From: Actinomycetota bacterium | GTDB lineage: Bacteria; Actinomycetota; Thermoleophilia; Gaiellales; Gaiellaceae | Direction: 5' to 3' | DNA: 46,729 nt | Assembly: GCA_020029615.1 (NCBI GenBank) | Contig: JAIBJO010000038.1 | Coordinates: 1-46,729, forward strand | Shown: positions 21,825 through 35,205 of the stretch, in pieces | How the letters are laid out: each line of letters begins with the position of its first letter | Position numbering within the stretch: position 1 is the stretch's first letter | The notes under the pieces: generated by a model | Seen by the model: only the letters and a program-made list of their open reading frames with translations | What the model was told of the DNA's origin: nothing | Database searches by the model: none | Program-made: the position numbers and the translations under genes

Positions 21825-22826
21825 TCACCTCTCTGCCGTCGGGGTCGTGGAGCGCGCGGATGCTAACACGCCAGACGCCAGGCGCTCCTGCAGTCGCTCG
21901 ACGACGCGATGCTCGACGCCGCGTGCGGCGAGCTCGATGGCGTTCGCGATGGCGACACGTGAGCTGGAGCCGTGCGCGATGACGACGAGACCGTTGAGGC
22001 CGAGCAGGTAGCCGCCGCCGTAGGTCTCCGGGTCGAGGCGCTCGCGAAGCCGGCGGGCCGCAGGGCGCATTAAGGCTCCGCCGACCTTCCCGCGCAGGGA
22101 TGACGCGAGCTCGGCTCTGAGCGCCTCGAGCAGGCTTCGGACGGTTCCCTCGAGCGTCTTCAAGGCGACGTTTCCCGTGAAGCCGTCCGTGACGACGACG
22201 TCGGCGCCGCCCTCCAGGAGTGCACGTCCTTCCATGTTCCCGCCGAACCGGAGATCGGCCGCACGGAGCAGCTCGTGGGCCTCGACCGTGAGCTGGTTGC
22301 CCTTCTCGTCCTCTTCTCCTATGGACATCAGCCGCACTTCCGGACGCTCGATGCCGAGGATCTCCTCCGCAAAGACGGATCCCATGTGAGCGAACTGGAC
22401 GAGATGCTCCGGCCGAGCGTCCGCATTCGCACCGGCGTCGATAAGCACGCTCGGGCCACGTTTGGTCGGGATCACGGCGGCGATGCCGGGCCGGTGCACG
22501 CCGGGAAGCCTGCGGATATGAAGGAGTGACGCTGCGAGCATCGCTCCCGTGTTTCCGGCCGACACGACGACGTCGGCCTCACCGTCGGCCACTGCTCGAA
22601 CCGCGCGCACGAGAGACGAGTCCGCCTTCGTCTTCACGGACTCGACGGGGTGGTCGTCCATGGCTATCGCTTCGGTGGTCGCGACGAGCGCGAGCCCGTG
22701 TGCATCCAGGTCTGGCGGCCCGTACAGCGTCAGCAGGATCTCGGGAGATGCAGCCCGTGCGGCGCCCGCGACGATCTCCTCGGGCGCGCGGTCGCCACCG
22801 AGAGCGTCAACGGCGACCCGGATCAC
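21825..22826 (-). CDS. plsX: Phosphate acyltransferase PlsX
   Basis: The 333-residue protein begins IRVAVDALGGDRAPEEIV, the PlsX N-terminal hallmark, and has VVSAGNTGAMLAASL, GIERPEVRLMSIGEEDEKG and VVTDGFTGNVALKTLEG. PlsX converts acyl-ACP to acyl-phosphate for PlsY and can also exchange acyl groups with the FakA/FakB system encoded at 32014-34852. The start GTG 22826 is 11 nt after the rpmF stop, so rpmF-plsX are co-transcribed. Confidence 0.95.
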   Translation of the reverse strand: MIRVAVDALGGDRAPEEIVAGAARAASPEILLTLYGPPDLDAHGLALVATTEAIAMDDHPVESVKTKADSSLVRAVRAVADGEADVVVSAGNTGAMLAASLLHIRRLPGVHRPGIAAVIPTKRGPSVLIDAGANADARPEHLVQFAHMGSVFAEEILGIERPEVRLMSIGEEDEKGNQLTVEAHELLRAADLRFGGNMEGRALLEGGADVVVTDGFTGNVALKTLEGTVRSLLEALRAELASSLRGKVGGALMRPAARRLRERLDPETYGGGYLLGLNGLVVIAHGSSSRVAIANAIELAARGVEHRVVERLQERLASGVLASARSTTPTAER

Positions 22827-29290: not shown

Positions 29291-31396
29291 TTACGATTCG
29301 CCCAGGTGCTCCGCCTCGCCGAGCAAGCGGTCGACGTCGTCCGCCAGCAAGCCCTCGTCGTCGAGCCCGGCAGCGACGTCTCGTGCACGCTGGAGCAGCC
29401 TCTGGTCACGGCGAAGCCGGACGAAGTGGAGGTCGGAGTAGCCCGACTGCCGCGCGCCCAGGAGCTGCCCTTCCCCGCGGATCTCGAGGTCGCGTTCGGC
29501 GAGCTCGAACCCGTCCGTCGTCGCGACCATGGCCTCGAGCCGCTCGCTCGCGCCCTCCGTGAGCTCCTCTTTCGAGCGCGAGACGAGTAAGCAGTACGAC
29601 TGCTCTTCGCCTCGCCCGACGCGCCCGCGAAGCTGATGGAGCTGTGCGAGGCCGAACCGGTCGGCCTCCTGCACGATCATGATCGTCGCGTTCGGGACGT
29701 CCACGCCGACCTCGATCACGGTCGTCGCGACGAGCACGTCGAGCTCACCCGCCTTGAAGCTCGCCATGACGCTCCGGCGCTCGGCCGGCCGAAGCCGACC
29801 GTGGAGACATCCGACACGGTAGCCACGCAGCTCGGCGCTGCGCAGCCGCTCGGCCTCGGCCTCGGCAGCGCGGGCGACCTTGGTCTCGGTCTCCTCGATC
29901 AGCGGGCAGACAACGTACGCCTGGCGCCCGACGTCGAGATGACGGCGGAGACGCGAATAGGCCTCCGAACTCCGTTCCTCCGTGACCCAGGCCGTGACGA
30001 CGGGCTTGCGGTTCGCCGGAGGAAGCGTGAGCTCGCTGACCTCCAGGTCGCCGTAGACCGTGAGCGCCAGCGTTCGCGGGATGGGCGTCGCGGTGAGGTG
30101 CAGCACGTGCGGGCTCCGGCCCTCGACGAGCGCGGTTCGCTGACCGACGCCGAAGCGGTGCTGCTCGTCGACAACCGCGACCGCGAGGTCGGCGAAGTCG
30201 ACCTCCTTTTGAATGAGCGCGTGAGTACCGACGACAATCTGCGCGTCGCCTGACGCGATGAGCTGGCGAGCGGCAGCGTGCTCACGCGCTCGCAGCGAGC
30301 TCGTCAGCAGGACGAGGCGAACGCCGAGCGGCGCGCTGAGCTCGTCGATCGTGAGGAAGTGCTGCTCGGCGAGCGTCTCCGTCGGCGCCATCAACGCGCC
30401 CTGCCGTCCCGCCTCGACCGCGCGCAGCAGCGCGTAGAGCGCCACCACGGTCTTCCCGGAGCCGACCTCTCCCTGAAGGAGCCGCTGCATCGGGATGGAG
30501 CGCTCGAGATCGACGTCGATCTCGTCGATCGAGCGCTTCTGATCCGGCGTCAGCACGAACGGAAGCGAGGTCCGGTAGCGCGCGACGAGCTCGCCGGGCC
30601 TGCCGAGAGGGACGGCTGCCGCTCGCTCGCGCTCGGCCGCGGTTCGCGCGAGCGCGAGCCGGAGAACGAGCAGCTCGTCGAAGGCGAGGCGCGCGCGACC
30701 GGCCTCGGCCTCGGCGAGCTCCCGTGGCCCGTGCACCGCAGCGAGGGCGTCCGCACGAAGTGGACGCCGCTCGCCTGCGAGCACCGAGGCGGGGAGCGGT
30801 TCCCCCGCGTCGCGCGCGAGCGCGACCGCCTGGACGTGCAGGTCTCGAAGCCGCTTCTGAGCGAGATCCTCGCTCGCCGGATAGACGGGGGCGTAGTCGG
30901 TGGTGGCTCCGTCTCCCTCGAGGTCGTAGGAGGACACGGCGAACCCGTAGCGGTTTGCGCGTCCCCGCAGACGCAGGTGCGTCCCGGGAGCGATCTTTCC
31001 CTCGAGCCAGGGCTGGTTGAACCACGTCGCCTTGATCTCGCCGGTGTCGTCGGCAACCCGCGCGGTGAGGATCCGCAGTCGCCCGCGGCGCCTGCTCGAA
31101 GCGGAGCGGACGACGACCTCGATCATGGCCTCGTCCTCCCCGAAGAGATCGCAGACTCGCCTCGACGGCACAGGCTCCTCGTAGCGCCGCGGAGGCTGCC
31201 AGAGCAGATCGCCGACCGTGAGGACGCCGATTCGGGCGAGGCGACGCGCGAGTGTCGGGCCGACGCCGTGGAGCGTCTCGACGCCGGCGGCGAGGCGTTC
31301 GGGCTTGGAAGCGCTGCGCGGCCGCGGCCAGACGGCGGGCGGGTCCAGACCGGCGAAGCCGGCCGGGAGGCCAACCCGAGGTCGAGTCCCCTTCAC
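29291..31396 (-). CDS. recG: ATP-dependent DNA helicase RecG
   Basis: The 701-residue helicase has the N-terminal wedge/OB domain ([32 protein letters not shown] at its start), motif [13 protein letters not shown], motif [11 protein letters not shown], motif [14 protein letters not shown], and the C-terminal [17 protein letters not shown] block. RecG remodels stalled forks and Holliday junctions. GTG 31396 has TATAGT 11 nt upstream. It is followed by rsmD and coaD after 115 bp, the usual neighbourhood. Confidence 0.95.
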
Positions 31397-31442: not shown

Positions 31443-32006
31443 CTAGGCGTCGACGACGAGCGTGTAGAGCCAACCCGGCTGCCAGCGGAAGGACCCCTCG
31501 ACCAGCTGCGGGAGTGGTGTGCCCTCGAGCAGGTGCTCGAGCGCCCACTGCGTGGCCGAGTGCCCGATCACGACGATCCGCCGGTTGTCGAAACGCGGCG
31601 AGAGATCGTGGAGGAAGCTCTGCACCCGGAACACGACCTGGCCGTAGCTCTCCCCACCGGGGTACGGCTCGTAGACATGACGTGATCTCTCCACCTCGAG
31701 CCGGGCCACCGGCGTGCCGTTCAACTCACCGTAGTCGCACTCTCGAAGACGCCAGTCGTGGAAGATCTGAACCTCGCGCCCGCCGAACGCGATCTGTGCC
31801 GTCTCGACAGCTCGCCCGAGGTCCGACGTGAAGACGGCGGCGATCGCCTCTCCCTTCCGACGCTCCGCGAGCTCGTTCGCCTGCCGCTTGCCCGCGATCG
31901 AGAGTCTTCCGTCGAGCCAGCCGGAAGCGACCCAGCGCTCGTTGTCCGTCGTGGTCGAGTGCGTCTCGAAGACGATCGCGACGCTCGACTGTCGCCTTCG
32001 TCGCAT
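31443..32006 (-). CDS. Histidine phosphatase superfamily protein
   Basis: The 187-residue protein belongs to the phosphoglycerate mutase-like superfamily but has FETHSTTTDNE in place of the usual RHGxT-N; the catalytic histidine is His16 and the arginine is Thr15. The second histidine is in VVIGHSATQWALEHLL, and the EYG-like segment is ECDYGELNG. ATG 32006 is preceded by AAGGA with a short spacer and follows the fakB-like gene by 7 bp. It is a phosphatase of unknown substrate; co-transcription with the Fak genes is likely. Confidence 0.8.
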   Translation of the reverse strand: MRRRRQSSVAIVFETHSTTTDNERWVASGWLDGRLSIAGKRQANELAERRKGEAIAAVFTSDLGRAVETAQIAFGGREVQIFHDWRLRECDYGELNGTPVARLEVERSRHVYEPYPGGESYGQVVFRVQSFLHDLSPRFDNRRIVVIGHSATQWALEHLLEGTPLPQLVEGSFRWQPGWLYTLVVDA

Positions 32007-32013
32007 GGCTTCC

Positions 32014-32874
32014 TTACTCGTCTTGGAACCAGAAGAACCCGACCGCGCCGGGTCCCGCATGCGTTCCGACCACCGCGCCCAGCGTCGCCGTGAACTCGAT
32101 CTCCGCTTTCGGGCGCACGCGCCAGACGATCTCGCTGAGCGTCCCGACCCACTCGGCGGCATCCGCATGTGCGATGGCGACGCGCAGTCCCGGCCCGTCG
32201 GCAGTCGCCTCGACGAATCGCCGCTCGAACTCGGCAAGCGCCTTCTGCCGGCCTCGCACGCGTGCGATCGCCACGACCACTCCGTCGTCCACACCGAGGA
32301 TCGGGCGCACGTTCAGGAGGGAGCCGGCGAGCGCCGCTGCCCTGCCGATGCGCCCGCCGCGCTGGAGGTACTCGAGCGTCTCCACGGTGAACAGCACCTC
32401 GGCGTCCTCGTGGAAGCGTGCGACGAGCGCCTCGATCTCCTGGTCGGTCGTCCCTCGTGCGAGTCGACGCTGAATCGCATGAGAGAGCATGGCGACGGCG
32501 AGCGACGCCGTCAGTGAGTCGACCACACGGACCCTGTCACCGCCCAGTTGCTGCGCTGCGAGCTCGGCACTCTGGAAGGTTCCGGAGACCTTCGAGGAGA
32601 CGTGCACCGAGTAGATCCGCTCGTACGCGGAAAGCTCCTCGTACGCCTCGACGAAGTCCTGCGGCGTCGGCTGTGCCGTTGCAGGCGTGACTGGTGACGC
32701 GCGGAGCTTCTCGTAGAACTCCGCCGGGCCGAGCTCGACGTAGTCGCGATAGGTGTCGTCGCCGAAGCGGACATACAGCGGCACGAAGCGCATGTTCGGG
32801 AAGCGCGACGGCGCCTCCGGGTAGTCCGACGTCGAATCGAGTACGACGGCGGTGTTCTCGGTGGTCAGGTTCAC
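32014..32874 (-). CDS. DegV-family fatty-acid-binding protein (FakB-like)
   Basis: The 286-residue protein has the DegV features AVVLDSTSDYPEAP, MRFVPLYVRFGDDTYRD, SSKVSGTFQSA and LQRGGRIGRAAALAGSLLNVRPIL. DegV/FakB proteins bind a fatty acid and present it to the kinase FakA to form acyl-phosphate. The start GTG 32874 overlaps the receiver-gene stop by 4 bp. FakA is encoded two genes upstream in the same operon, so the assignment to the Fak pathway is well supported. Confidence 0.88.
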   Translation of the reverse strand: MNLTTENTAVVLDSTSDYPEAPSRFPNMRFVPLYVRFGDDTYRDYVELGPAEFYEKLRASPVTPATAQPTPQDFVEAYEELSAYERIYSVHVSSKVSGTFQSAELAAQQLGGDRVRVVDSLTASLAVAMLSHAIQRRLARGTTDQEIEALVARFHEDAEVLFTVETLEYLQRGGRIGRAAALAGSLLNVRPILGVDDGVVVAIARVRGRQKALAEFERRFVEATADGPGLRVAIAHADAAEWVGTLSEIVWRVRPKAEIEFTATLGAVVGTHAGPGAVGFFWFQDE

Positions 32875-33263
32875 TCGGAGCTCCTCACGGCGGCGGCGCG
32901 CACGGCGACCACGAGCGCATCGACTCCCTCGTCCTTGCGAACGAGCGCTGCGCCCGCACTCGACGCGGCATCGTACTCGTCCTGCCCCGCCGACGCGCTC
33001 AGAAAAACGACGACGACTCCCGGACATCGCTCCCGCAGGTCGGCCGCGACCTCCGCGCCGCCGATGTCGGGCAGCCGGAAGTCGAGCACGACGACGTCTG
33101 GACGGAGCTCGAGGCACGCAGGCATCGCCGCGGCGCCGTCGCCGACGGCGCCGACCACGTCGAGCCCGCGGACCGCGTGCAAGAGGAACACGAGCGACTC
33201 GCGGTACACGTCCGAGTCCTCGACGAGAAGGACGCGGATCGACGGCGTGTCGCGCTCGCTCAC
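32871..33263 (-). CDS. Stand-alone response-regulator receiver domain
   Basis: The 130-residue protein is a single REC domain: acidic pair E15-D16 in LLVEDSD, phospho-acceptor D61 in VVVLDFRLPD, the serine in VVFLSASA and the conserved lysine in LVRKDEG. No output domain is present. It overlaps fakA and the fakB-like gene by 4 bp on each side, so it is translated with them. No histidine kinase is nearby. It may act by protein contact, possibly on FakA or FakB; this is inference. Confidence 0.88.
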   Translation of the reverse strand: MSERDTPSIRVLLVEDSDVYRESLVFLLHAVRGLDVVGAVGDGAAAMPACLELRPDVVVLDFRLPDIGGAEVAADLRERCPGVVVVFLSASAGQDEYDAASSAGAALVRKDEGVDALVVAVRAAAVRSSE

Positions 33264-34852
33264 TCCGCGACGACGAGCAGGGGATAGTGCGGCTGGCCGC
33301 CCTCGTGAACCTCGACCTCGACGTCGGGGTGCCGTTGCTCGAGTGCGCCGACAAGCCCGTCGAGGGGCGGTGCGCCCTCACCGGTGAGGATCGTCAGGAT
33401 CTCCTTCCTTCCGGCGAGCACGCGGTCGATCACTTCGAGCACCACGGCCTCGAGGTCGGCATCCGAGACGACGGCGACGTCGTCGACGAGGCCCAGATAG
33501 GCGCCCTTGCTGATCGCGACCCCGTCGAGCTCGACGTCACGCGACGCGACCGTGATCTCGCCGGTCACTGCGCCCGCGAGCCCTTCCAGCATGGCGCGCT
33601 CGTTGTCCTGCGGAGACGCCGACGACATGAATCTCGTGATGGCGGCGAAGCCCGCCTGCACCGACTTCGAGGGAATCACGCGCACGCTCTTCTCGCTCAG
33701 CGCTGCGGCCTGCTCGGCCGTAAGGATCACGTTCGAGTTGTTCGGGAGGACCAGCACCTCCGGCGTGGGCACGGCCTCGATGGCGGCGAGGATGTCGGCA
33801 GCTGACGGGTTCATCGAGGCGCCACCCTCGATCACTCGCGCCGCTCCGAGACTCTCGAAGAGCCGGCGGTTTCCGCGGCCGGGACAGACGGCGACGAGCC
33901 CTGTCTCGAGCGTCGCGAGCGCGCCCGGGGAGCCTTCGAGCAGCCGCTCTTCGCGCTGCGCGGTCTGGACGTGCATGTTTGCGATCTCGACGCCCTCTAC
34001 GACCCCGAGCGCCGTCCCGAGAGCGAGCGCGTGACCCGGCTCGTCCGTGTGCACGTGCACCTTGAGCGCGGTCGGGTCGCCGACGACGAGGAGCGAGTCG
34101 CCAATCAGCTCGAGCCGGCTTTCGAGCGCGTCTTTGTCCAGCCCGTCTCCCTCGACGACGAACACGGTGCAGTACCGGTACTGCGAGAGCTCCTGGTGGA
34201 TCGCGTCGAATCCAAGCGACTCCGCCTCCACGGGCGCCTCCGGGAGATCGTCGCCCGTGGCGCCATACACCATTCCACGCGCGATCTCGACGAGCCCCGC
34301 GCCGCCCGCGTCCACGACGCCCGCGTCTCGAAGGATGTCGAGCAGGTCCGGCGTTCGCGCGAGCGCGTCTTCCCCGCGAGCGAGCACGGCGAGCAGAAGC
34401 TCGTTGGGACGGAGGCGGCGGTTCTCCTTCCGTTCGCTCTCCTCCGCCATCTCGCGAATGACCGTGAGCATCGTCCCCTCGACTGGGCGCTTGACCGCCC
34501 GGTACGCGGTGTCGCTGGCGCCTCGAAAGGCGCGGCTGAGGAGGGACGAGCTGACACCCTCGTGCTGACCTAGCACCTCGACGAAACCGCGCACGACCTG
34601 AGAGAAGATGACGCCCGAGTTGCCGCGCGCACCCATCAGAGCGGCCCGCGTCACGTCCTTGGCCACGGCCTCGCTGTCCGCCGCGGTGGACGAGTCGAGC
34701 GCCTCGACGATCGACCTCAGCGTGAGGACGAGATTCGTTCCGGTGTCCCCGTCGGGGACGGGATAGACGTTCAGGTCGTCGATTCGGCGGCGATGCGACT
34801 CGAGGTTCTGCAGCGCGCTGCGCGCAAGGTGTCGGACGACTTCGAGCTCCAT
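33260..34852 (-). CDS. fakA: DAK2-domain fatty acid kinase FakA (YloV family)
   Basis: The 530-residue protein has the N-terminal DhaL-type ATP-binding domain (NLESHRRRIDDLNVYPVPDG, DTGTNLVLTL, MGARGNSGVIFSQ), a middle domain (VHVHTDEPGHAL) and the C-terminal FakA_C part (LVAVCPGRGN, VLPNNSNVILTAEQA). FakA phosphorylates FakB-bound fatty acids. ATG 34852 immediately follows the Asp23 stop (TGATG). Longer starts upstream have no homology. The asp23-fakA pairing is typical; the intervening receiver gene before fakB is not. Confidence 0.92.
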   Translation of the reverse strand: MELEVVRHLARSALQNLESHRRRIDDLNVYPVPDGDTGTNLVLTLRSIVEALDSSTAADSEAVAKDVTRAALMGARGNSGVIFSQVVRGFVEVLGQHEGVSSSLLSRAFRGASDTAYRAVKRPVEGTMLTVIREMAEESERKENRRLRPNELLLAVLARGEDALARTPDLLDILRDAGVVDAGGAGLVEIARGMVYGATGDDLPEAPVEAESLGFDAIHQELSQYRYCTVFVVEGDGLDKDALESRLELIGDSLLVVGDPTALKVHVHTDEPGHALALGTALGVVEGVEIANMHVQTAQREERLLEGSPGALATLETGLVAVCPGRGNRRLFESLGAARVIEGGASMNPSAADILAAIEAVPTPEVLVLPNNSNVILTAEQAAALSEKSVRVIPSKSVQAGFAAITRFMSSASPQDNERAMLEGLAGAVTGEITVASRDVELDGVAISKGAYLGLVDDVAVVSDADLEAVVLEVIDRVLAGRKEILTILTGEGAPPLDGLVGALEQRHPDVEVEVHEGGQPHYPLLVVAE

Positions 34853-35205
34853 CAGCGCGAGCGCACGCCTTCGATGTAGACCTCGAGGGACGCTATCGGG
34901 AGCCCGACCATCCGCTCGAGCTCGTACACGACGCGAGAGCGCACGGTCTCTGCGACCTCCGCGAGCTTCAGCCCGTGCTCGATCACGACGCGGAGCTCGA
35001 CGACGAGCCCTTCCGCGCCAAGGTCGACGTCGACGCCCTTCTTGATCCCCCACGGCAGCAACCGCGAGAGCCGACGGCGCCCGACCAGCGCGACGACCCC
35101 GTAGCTCTCGGCCGCCGCAGCACCGACGATCTGGGCGATCGCGTCGGCGGAGACGGCTATCCGCCCGCGCTCGGTGGTGGCGATCACGAACGGCTCGCGC
35201 TCCAC
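34852..35205 (-). CDS. Asp23/Gls24 family envelope stress protein
   Basis: The 117-residue protein shows the Asp23 pattern: GRIAVSADAIAQIVGAAAAESYGV, then KKGVDVDLGAEGLVVELRVVIEHG and a C-terminal VYELERMVGLPIASLEVYI. Such proteins are linked to membrane stress and commonly precede fakA/yloV. GTG 35205 lies exactly 6 nt after TAGGCT on the minus strand, so it is probably leaderless. It is 26 bp downstream of rpmB. Confidence 0.88.
   Translation of the reverse strand: MEREPFVIATTERGRIAVSADAIAQIVGAAAAESYGVVALVGRRRLSRLLPWGIKKGVDVDLGAEGLVVELRVVIEHGLKLAEVAETVRSRVVYELERMVGLPIASLEVYIEGVRSR

Follow-up and report, generated by a model that had tools for sequence, protein, structure and literature searches.

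In the Pak-SdrG-PhyT-PhyR relay of Sphingomonas melonis, the phosphotransferase has a degenerate ATPase, and the available sections of the paper record its authors' suspicion that PhyT derives from a kinase (PMC5898713). In Firmicutes, Spo0F and Spo0B occur together or are both absent in almost all species, and spo0B adjoins ribosomal-protein genes, according to the consulted part of PMC6136694. Here we describe a comparable set of genes in the actinobacterial family Gaiellaceae, consisting of a stand-alone receiver (REC), a histidine protein with an apparently dead ATP site (HKx) and a NarL/LuxR-type regulator (LRx). With SdrG-PhyT-PhyR it shares the combination of a single-domain receiver, a degenerate-ATPase histidine protein and an output regulator, although the former system is alphaproteobacterial, belongs to the HWE/HisKA_2 kinases, has a membrane-bound PhyT and acts through PhyR on an anti-sigma factor (excerpts of PMC5898713), whereas the Gaiellaceae set is of the HisKA_3 class, has a NarL-type output and a receiver gene within a lipid operon, and is known from genes alone. 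With Spo0F-Spo0B-Spo0A it shares a single-domain receiver and a phosphotransferase that occur together (PMC6136694, in part). The histidine protein and output of the Spo0 relay belong to other families, however, and the Gaiellaceae set has no known link to sporulation.

In the Caulobacter ChpT system the receiver is CpdR and ChpT is fed by a hybrid kinase, which differs from the Gaiellaceae set. Like HKx, the ChpT of ChpT-CpdR/CtrA resembles a kinase, being described in excerpts of PMC3433190 as a dimeric, histidine-kinase-like histidine phosphotransferase. The neighbors of REC belong to the same families as the FakA-FakB fatty acid kinase, an enzyme described without a receiver in the sections of PMC9136124 available. 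Among the papers listed, titles and abstract openings on FakA/FakB regulation, DegV fusions and Gaiellaceae signaling contained no fakA-REC-degV arrangement. By its parts and their co-occurrence, the REC, HKx and LRx set resembles the Spo0 and SdrG-PhyT-PhyR relays and, if our reading is right, would work as they do.

A stand-alone receiver between fakA and degV

The window, which is the whole 46,729-nucleotide stretch of DNA analyzed, carries on its minus strand, in order, asp23, fakA, REC, degV, a histidine-phosphatase-like gene and recG. The asp23-family gene (34852-35205; PF03780, 71.8 bits) lies upstream of fakA (33260-34852) and has one base in common with it. The fakA product contains Dak2, middle and C-terminal domains (Pfam Dak2, FakA-like_M and FakA-like_C), and is followed by the 130-residue REC (32871-33263, GTG start) and by a degV/fakB-like gene (32014-32874, GTG start; PF02645, 249 bits; TIGR00762, 264 bits). 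The earlier note had reported that these three genes overlap by 4 bp each, and this is exact in coordinates and strand: both overlaps read GTGA, with the REC start on the fakA stop and the degV start on the REC stop.

Downstream of degV, a reading frame named by eye encodes the putative histidine-phosphatase-like protein (31443-32006), and recG (29291-31396) forms the right flank of the conserved place by tblastn synteny. The usual motif of histidine phosphatases is RHG; its place in this protein seems to read THS. Among the loci compared by tblastn, the gene adjoins degV solely in the genus of the window.

The fakA product scored 542 bits against the FakA/YloV family model TIGR03599 (cut-off 396) and fell under the stricter FakA equivalog cut-off (402 versus 975 bits), as the degV product did for the fatty_FakB1 model (138 versus 350 bits). 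Because these products clear the broad models (YloV and DegV) and not the stricter FakA and FakB1 equivalogs, "fatty acid kinase" (FAK) is used here as a family-level assignment from sequence. Visual inspection of the fakA product shows a PVPDGDTG motif and the middle-domain Cys and HxH residues; a Cys-His-His triad of FakA is described in PMC9136124 (consulted in part). As the earlier note had it, two further genes lie about 10 kb away: plsX (21894-22823, minus strand; PF02504, 315.7 bits), whose product converts acyl-ACP to acyl-phosphate, and an acpP-like gene recognized near 21.7 kb by its DSLD motif only.

REC matched the Response_reg family PF00072 through residues 11-121, covering 110 of 111 model positions at 59.4 bits (cut-off 30.2). 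No other Pfam family matched at E<=0.001, so it is a receiver domain only, lacking an output domain as first noticed. The key residues said to be present are indeed there: the acidic pair E15 and D16, D61, S89 and K110, with the phospho-acceptor Asp61 codon (GAC) at 33081-33083 on the minus strand in agreement between DNA, translation and alignment. Of 65 distinct orthologues, 64 retain an acidic pair (ED or DD), the Asp, the Ser/Thr and the Lys; the exception (L040) runs into a contig end and is missing its N-terminal half. Receivers commonly carry an aromatic switch residue three positions before the Lys, which phosphorylation does not need. This position is Leu107 in the window, Cys in most orthologues, mostly Leu in the window's genus and Phe in one (L004). 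One further type-A REC (L084:6001-6273) is shorter in frame by about 25 residues (alpha1-beta2) with the listed residues kept, which may reflect decay or an assembly error. A plasmid search with REC returned three records, each with <41% identity.

Conservation of gene order in Gaiellaceae

REC was searched for in 61 genomes (its own and relatives), and a profile of 29 orthologues was then applied to 199 genomes from the same class. Matches of at least 131 bits occurred in 37 genomes, all Gaiellaceae, with the next best match at 118 bits; the copy in G010, truncated where its contig stops, falls below 131 bits. REC orthologues were thus confined to Gaiellaceae among the genomes searched, including a contig scan considered through its best 80 matches. 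One contig titled Acidobacteriota bacterium (L046) carries the full Gaiellaceae arrangement and is possibly a misassigned metagenome bin.

Leaving out partial or duplicate loci, we compared 65 distinct REC proteins, which fell into three architectures. Gene order fakA-REC-degV (type A) accounts for 54 of the 65. Both neighbors were seen in 50 of these 54, and in the other four (L026, L040, L055, L073) the contig breaks off within the locus; the adjacency is therefore more than chance. In 44 of 50 measured loci the fakA-REC gap is at most 20 bp (L046, L067 and L160, with a doubtful REC start, and one locus without fakA were omitted), and in 26 of 51 loci degV has a possible start with a 4-bp overlap on REC. 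The survey of gene order that the earlier note called for accordingly found a conserved and closely coupled unit.

Four loci (type B; L023, L065, L071, L156) have asp23, a FakA cut down to its N-terminal domain of ~200 residues, and REC; degV is missing from the locus. The three type-B genomes searched (G020, G161, G166) also carry, at another site, a reading frame for FakA and DegV together, with domains checked for G020. By Pfam, the frames at L024:3160-4905 (G020) and L038:3578-5227 (G044) fuse the FakA nucleotide and middle domains to DegV and have no FakA C-domain, a possible one-chain fatty acid kinase. Equal open frames in other genomes of related families suggest the same fusion there.

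Outside Gaiellaceae, fakA was beside or fused to degV in four of four outgroup loci read, with REC absent, and adjacent fakA/degV pairs were found by coordinates in further families. Because REC is confined to Gaiellaceae and the outgroup fakA-degV pairs have no REC, its gene was most likely inserted between fakA and degV in the Gaiellaceae ancestor. Two family members do without it: G028 retains asp23-fakA-degV, which leaves no space for REC, and G030 keeps asp23 and the FakA N-domain with REC absent from the locus.

Repeated loss of fatty acid kinase genes around a retained receiver

In the remaining seven of 65 (type C), REC stands alone after rpmB. These genomes (G017, G018, G035, G120, G205, G212 and G218) are 69, 71, 91, 93, 96, 82 and 91% complete, four of the seven being at least 90% complete. 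Searches of all seven at E<=0.001 gave no DegV match and no fakA by the YloV model; the exception was one 27-bit Dak2-like match in G018. fakA and degV were gone from the REC place itself in 7/7, including the three genomes that are 69-82% complete. Following REC we found recG in four genomes (in G017 after one intervening gene), a contig end first in G035 and G120, and other genes in G018. All seven type-C RECs retain the acidic pair, the Asp, the Ser/Thr and the Lys.

On a FastTree phylogeny of RibBA, RibH, L28 and RecG from 60 loci, in which several deeper branches are weak, type C appears at no fewer than five separate places. L032 groups with type-A L058 (support 0.96), L033 with type-A L031 (0.99), L151 with type-A L050/L059 (0.87), L152 with L153 (1.00), and L154 clusters with type-A L155 and REC-less L028 (1.00); the placement of L034 is weak. 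Taking regain of FAK genes at the same place as not happening, the tree indicates that they were lost separately at least five times around a retained REC.

These losses bear on the idea that REC regulates fatty acid kinase by touching FakA or FakB in a way that depends on phosphorylation. The constant presence of both genes beside REC in complete type-A loci and the short gaps and overlaps speak for such control, as does the persistence of REC after the FakA N-domain in the four loci without the rest of FakA and degV. However, on its own that N-domain has no kinase activity in Staphylococcus aureus (PMC9136124, sections consulted), and the fakA-degV pairs of G028 and the outgroup manage without a receiver. 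REC does not occur only with fakA and degV, as seven of 65 are in genomes where neither was found; since it is kept there, REC persists after loss of the very enzyme that it was suggested to regulate. Control of FakA/FakB cannot be the sole role of REC, and we consider regulation of the kinase by direct contact unlikely. Of the original suggestion that a relay signal adjusts FAK activity, the relay role stands as likely, whereas FakA and FakB as the main target of REC do not, given the seven genomes with REC and no FAK, the minimum of five losses, and G028 and 4/4 outgroup loci with fakA-degV and no REC. The place of REC in the asp23-fakA-degV unit most likely means co-translation with FAK, not a dedicated FAK function.

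A chemical route from the same enzymes would have acyl-phosphate made by FakAB or PlsX phosphorylate REC, which would then report the acyl-phosphate level. Receivers can use acetyl phosphate (excerpts of PMC5539427), FakAB and PlsX both make acyl-phosphate, and PlsX was found in four of the seven genomes with REC and no FAK. However, PlsX was not found in G017, G018 or G035, the last of these 91% complete, and in the consulted sections of PMC5539427 S. aureus FakA, FakB2 and oleate did not phosphorylate SaeR. The same sections describe a FAK/two-component link in S. aureus that runs through the fatty acid level, with neither SaeS nor SaeR phosphorylated by FakA/FakB. Acyl-phosphate as the sole phosphodonor was rejected, as PlsX does not track REC and the SaeR result is negative, and we regard this donor as very improbable.

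A kinase-like protein that co-occurs with REC

Because REC is NarL-like, HisKA_3 kinases were counted; the PF00512 kinases were too numerous to be divided into families. A HisKA_3 kinase is present in 58 of 60 Gaiellaceae genomes and absent from G014 and G028, both REC-less. In a discovery set of 12 genomes with 38 HisKA_3 matches, 15 of which were compared, one small HisKA_3 protein (HKx) was common to the eight genomes with REC and was the sole HisKA_3 protein of G035. The HisKA_3 matches of REC-less G022 (one) and G030 (three) were other kinases. A seven-row HKx profile (A2) run on 80 genomes (60 Gaiellaceae and 20 others) separated members at 177 bits or more from all else at 109 or less, except that of two contig-edge pieces in G212 one scored 107 and the other 189.

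In the 33 Gaiellaceae genomes with a completeness of at least 90%, HKx was present in 30/30 with REC and 0/3 without (G014, G022, G028), a concordance of 33/33. REC absence was called from the search in G014 and G022 and from the locus itself in G028 and G030; in G030 (81% complete) HKx is also absent. FAK genes in the same 33 genomes were present in 26 and absent from four with REC, and present in one and absent from two without REC, where the FAK-positive count takes in G010 and G024 (degV or fakA alone at contig ends) and the three type-B genomes. Fisher tests that ignore relatedness gave p = 1.8e-4 for REC-HKx versus p = 0.08 for REC-FAK, and the former value is descriptive, being post hoc: HKx was sought as a separator, with the three REC-less genomes in the discovery set. 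Exceptions to the concordance occurred only in less complete genomes. REC was found without an HKx match in G002 (53% complete), G005 (58%), G008 (63%), G016 (86%), G032 (56%) and G197 (88%), and HKx without a seen REC in G026 (82%), G001 (73%, contig ending inside fakA) and G221 (81%), the search for the REC place having come up empty in G026 and G221; G034 (64%) has neither.

Two of the three REC-less genomes, G014 and G028, have no HisKA_3 kinase, and so co-loss there could be explained by general loss of the class. HKx was also found in six of the 20 outgroup genomes, all REC-less, and on this sequence evidence is therefore older than REC. Across the family, survival of REC follows HKx rather than its fatty acid neighbors, so that REC probably belongs to a phosphate relay and is only housed in the fatty acid kinase operon.

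Decay of the HKx ATP site

In the window's own genome HKx is a 217-residue protein (G000:C157:60350-61003) with a HisKA_3 match of 36 bits and a partial HATPase match. The best matches to its predicted structure (mean pLDDT 88.7) are DesK structures, the DesK-DesR phosphotransfer complex among them (Foldseek E 4e-9), with a TM score of only ~0.48 over both domains. Counting identical sequences once and dropping L178 (short) and L212, we aligned 29 HKx rows, 25 from Gaiellaceae and four from the outgroup. All 29 retain the His of LHDxxxQ together with the DxxxQ motif, which we take to be a phosphatase motif. All 25 Gaiellaceae rows have another residue in place of the N-box Asn, and their nucleotide lid (G1-G2) is reduced to a short segment containing ERR, while all four outgroup copies (G037, G038, G040, G052) retain the Asn, the KHA/KHG after it and the lid, and six ordinary kinases retain Asn and lid. 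By sequence, then, the ATP site of Gaiellaceae HKx is degenerate and that of the outgroup copies is intact.

The regulator gene LRx (C157:61000-61623) overlaps HKx by 4 bp in the window's genome, and the two genes adjoin in 38/38 loci read, several genomes occurring twice. Three response regulators inspected in REC-less G022 and G028 did not include LRx. A shared receiver motif was considered as proof of a shared partner and set aside as too weak: the strict form [DE]VxRE occurs in 30/31 LRx, 22/63 REC and 0/29 other receivers (9 + 20).

REC could instead be an ordinary orphan CheY-like receiver or a phosphate sink whose links to HKx and FAK are coincidental. Many single-domain receivers are known, with a wide range of protein targets, REC has no output domain, and its co-occurrence with HKx rests on few REC-less genomes. 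On the other hand, the HKx ATP site was lost in the same family that gained REC, and both genes are missing together in the 3/3 REC-less genomes that are at least 90% complete, and in G030. We judge a coincidental association possible, if doubtful.

A putative phosphorelay

With moderate confidence, we propose that REC is a NarL-like single-domain receiver that works, as Spo0F does in Bacillus and SdrG in Sphingomonas, in a relay with HKx, a kinase turned phosphotransferase. The REC gene would have arisen in, or been captured by, the Gaiellaceae ancestor, landing between fakA and degV. Some sensor kinase would phosphorylate REC Asp61, and the phosphoryl group would be exchanged between Asp61 and the conserved His of HKx. 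With its ATP-binding domain decayed, HKx would act as a phosphotransferase or phosphatase, and hardly as a kinase, and LRx is the presumed final receiver. Contact between REC and HKx, the direction of transfer and LRx as the output are what we infer from the genes.

A broader proposal, which we think unlikely, makes REC, co-translated with FakA and FakB, a hub that feeds the HKx-LRx relay and also adjusts or reports FAK activity where FAK is present, a DesK/NarX-class kinase having become a phosphotransferase on acquisition of REC. If true, this would tie membrane lipid supply to a transcription program. For operon-based prediction, the family illustrates that tight conservation and 4-bp overlaps are no proof of shared function, as REC outlives its operon partners five times or more. 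Gaiellaceae also offer a traceable case in which a two-component kinase apparently became a relay phosphotransferase in the same family where a free-standing receiver emerges, with kinases still intact in the outgroup for comparison.
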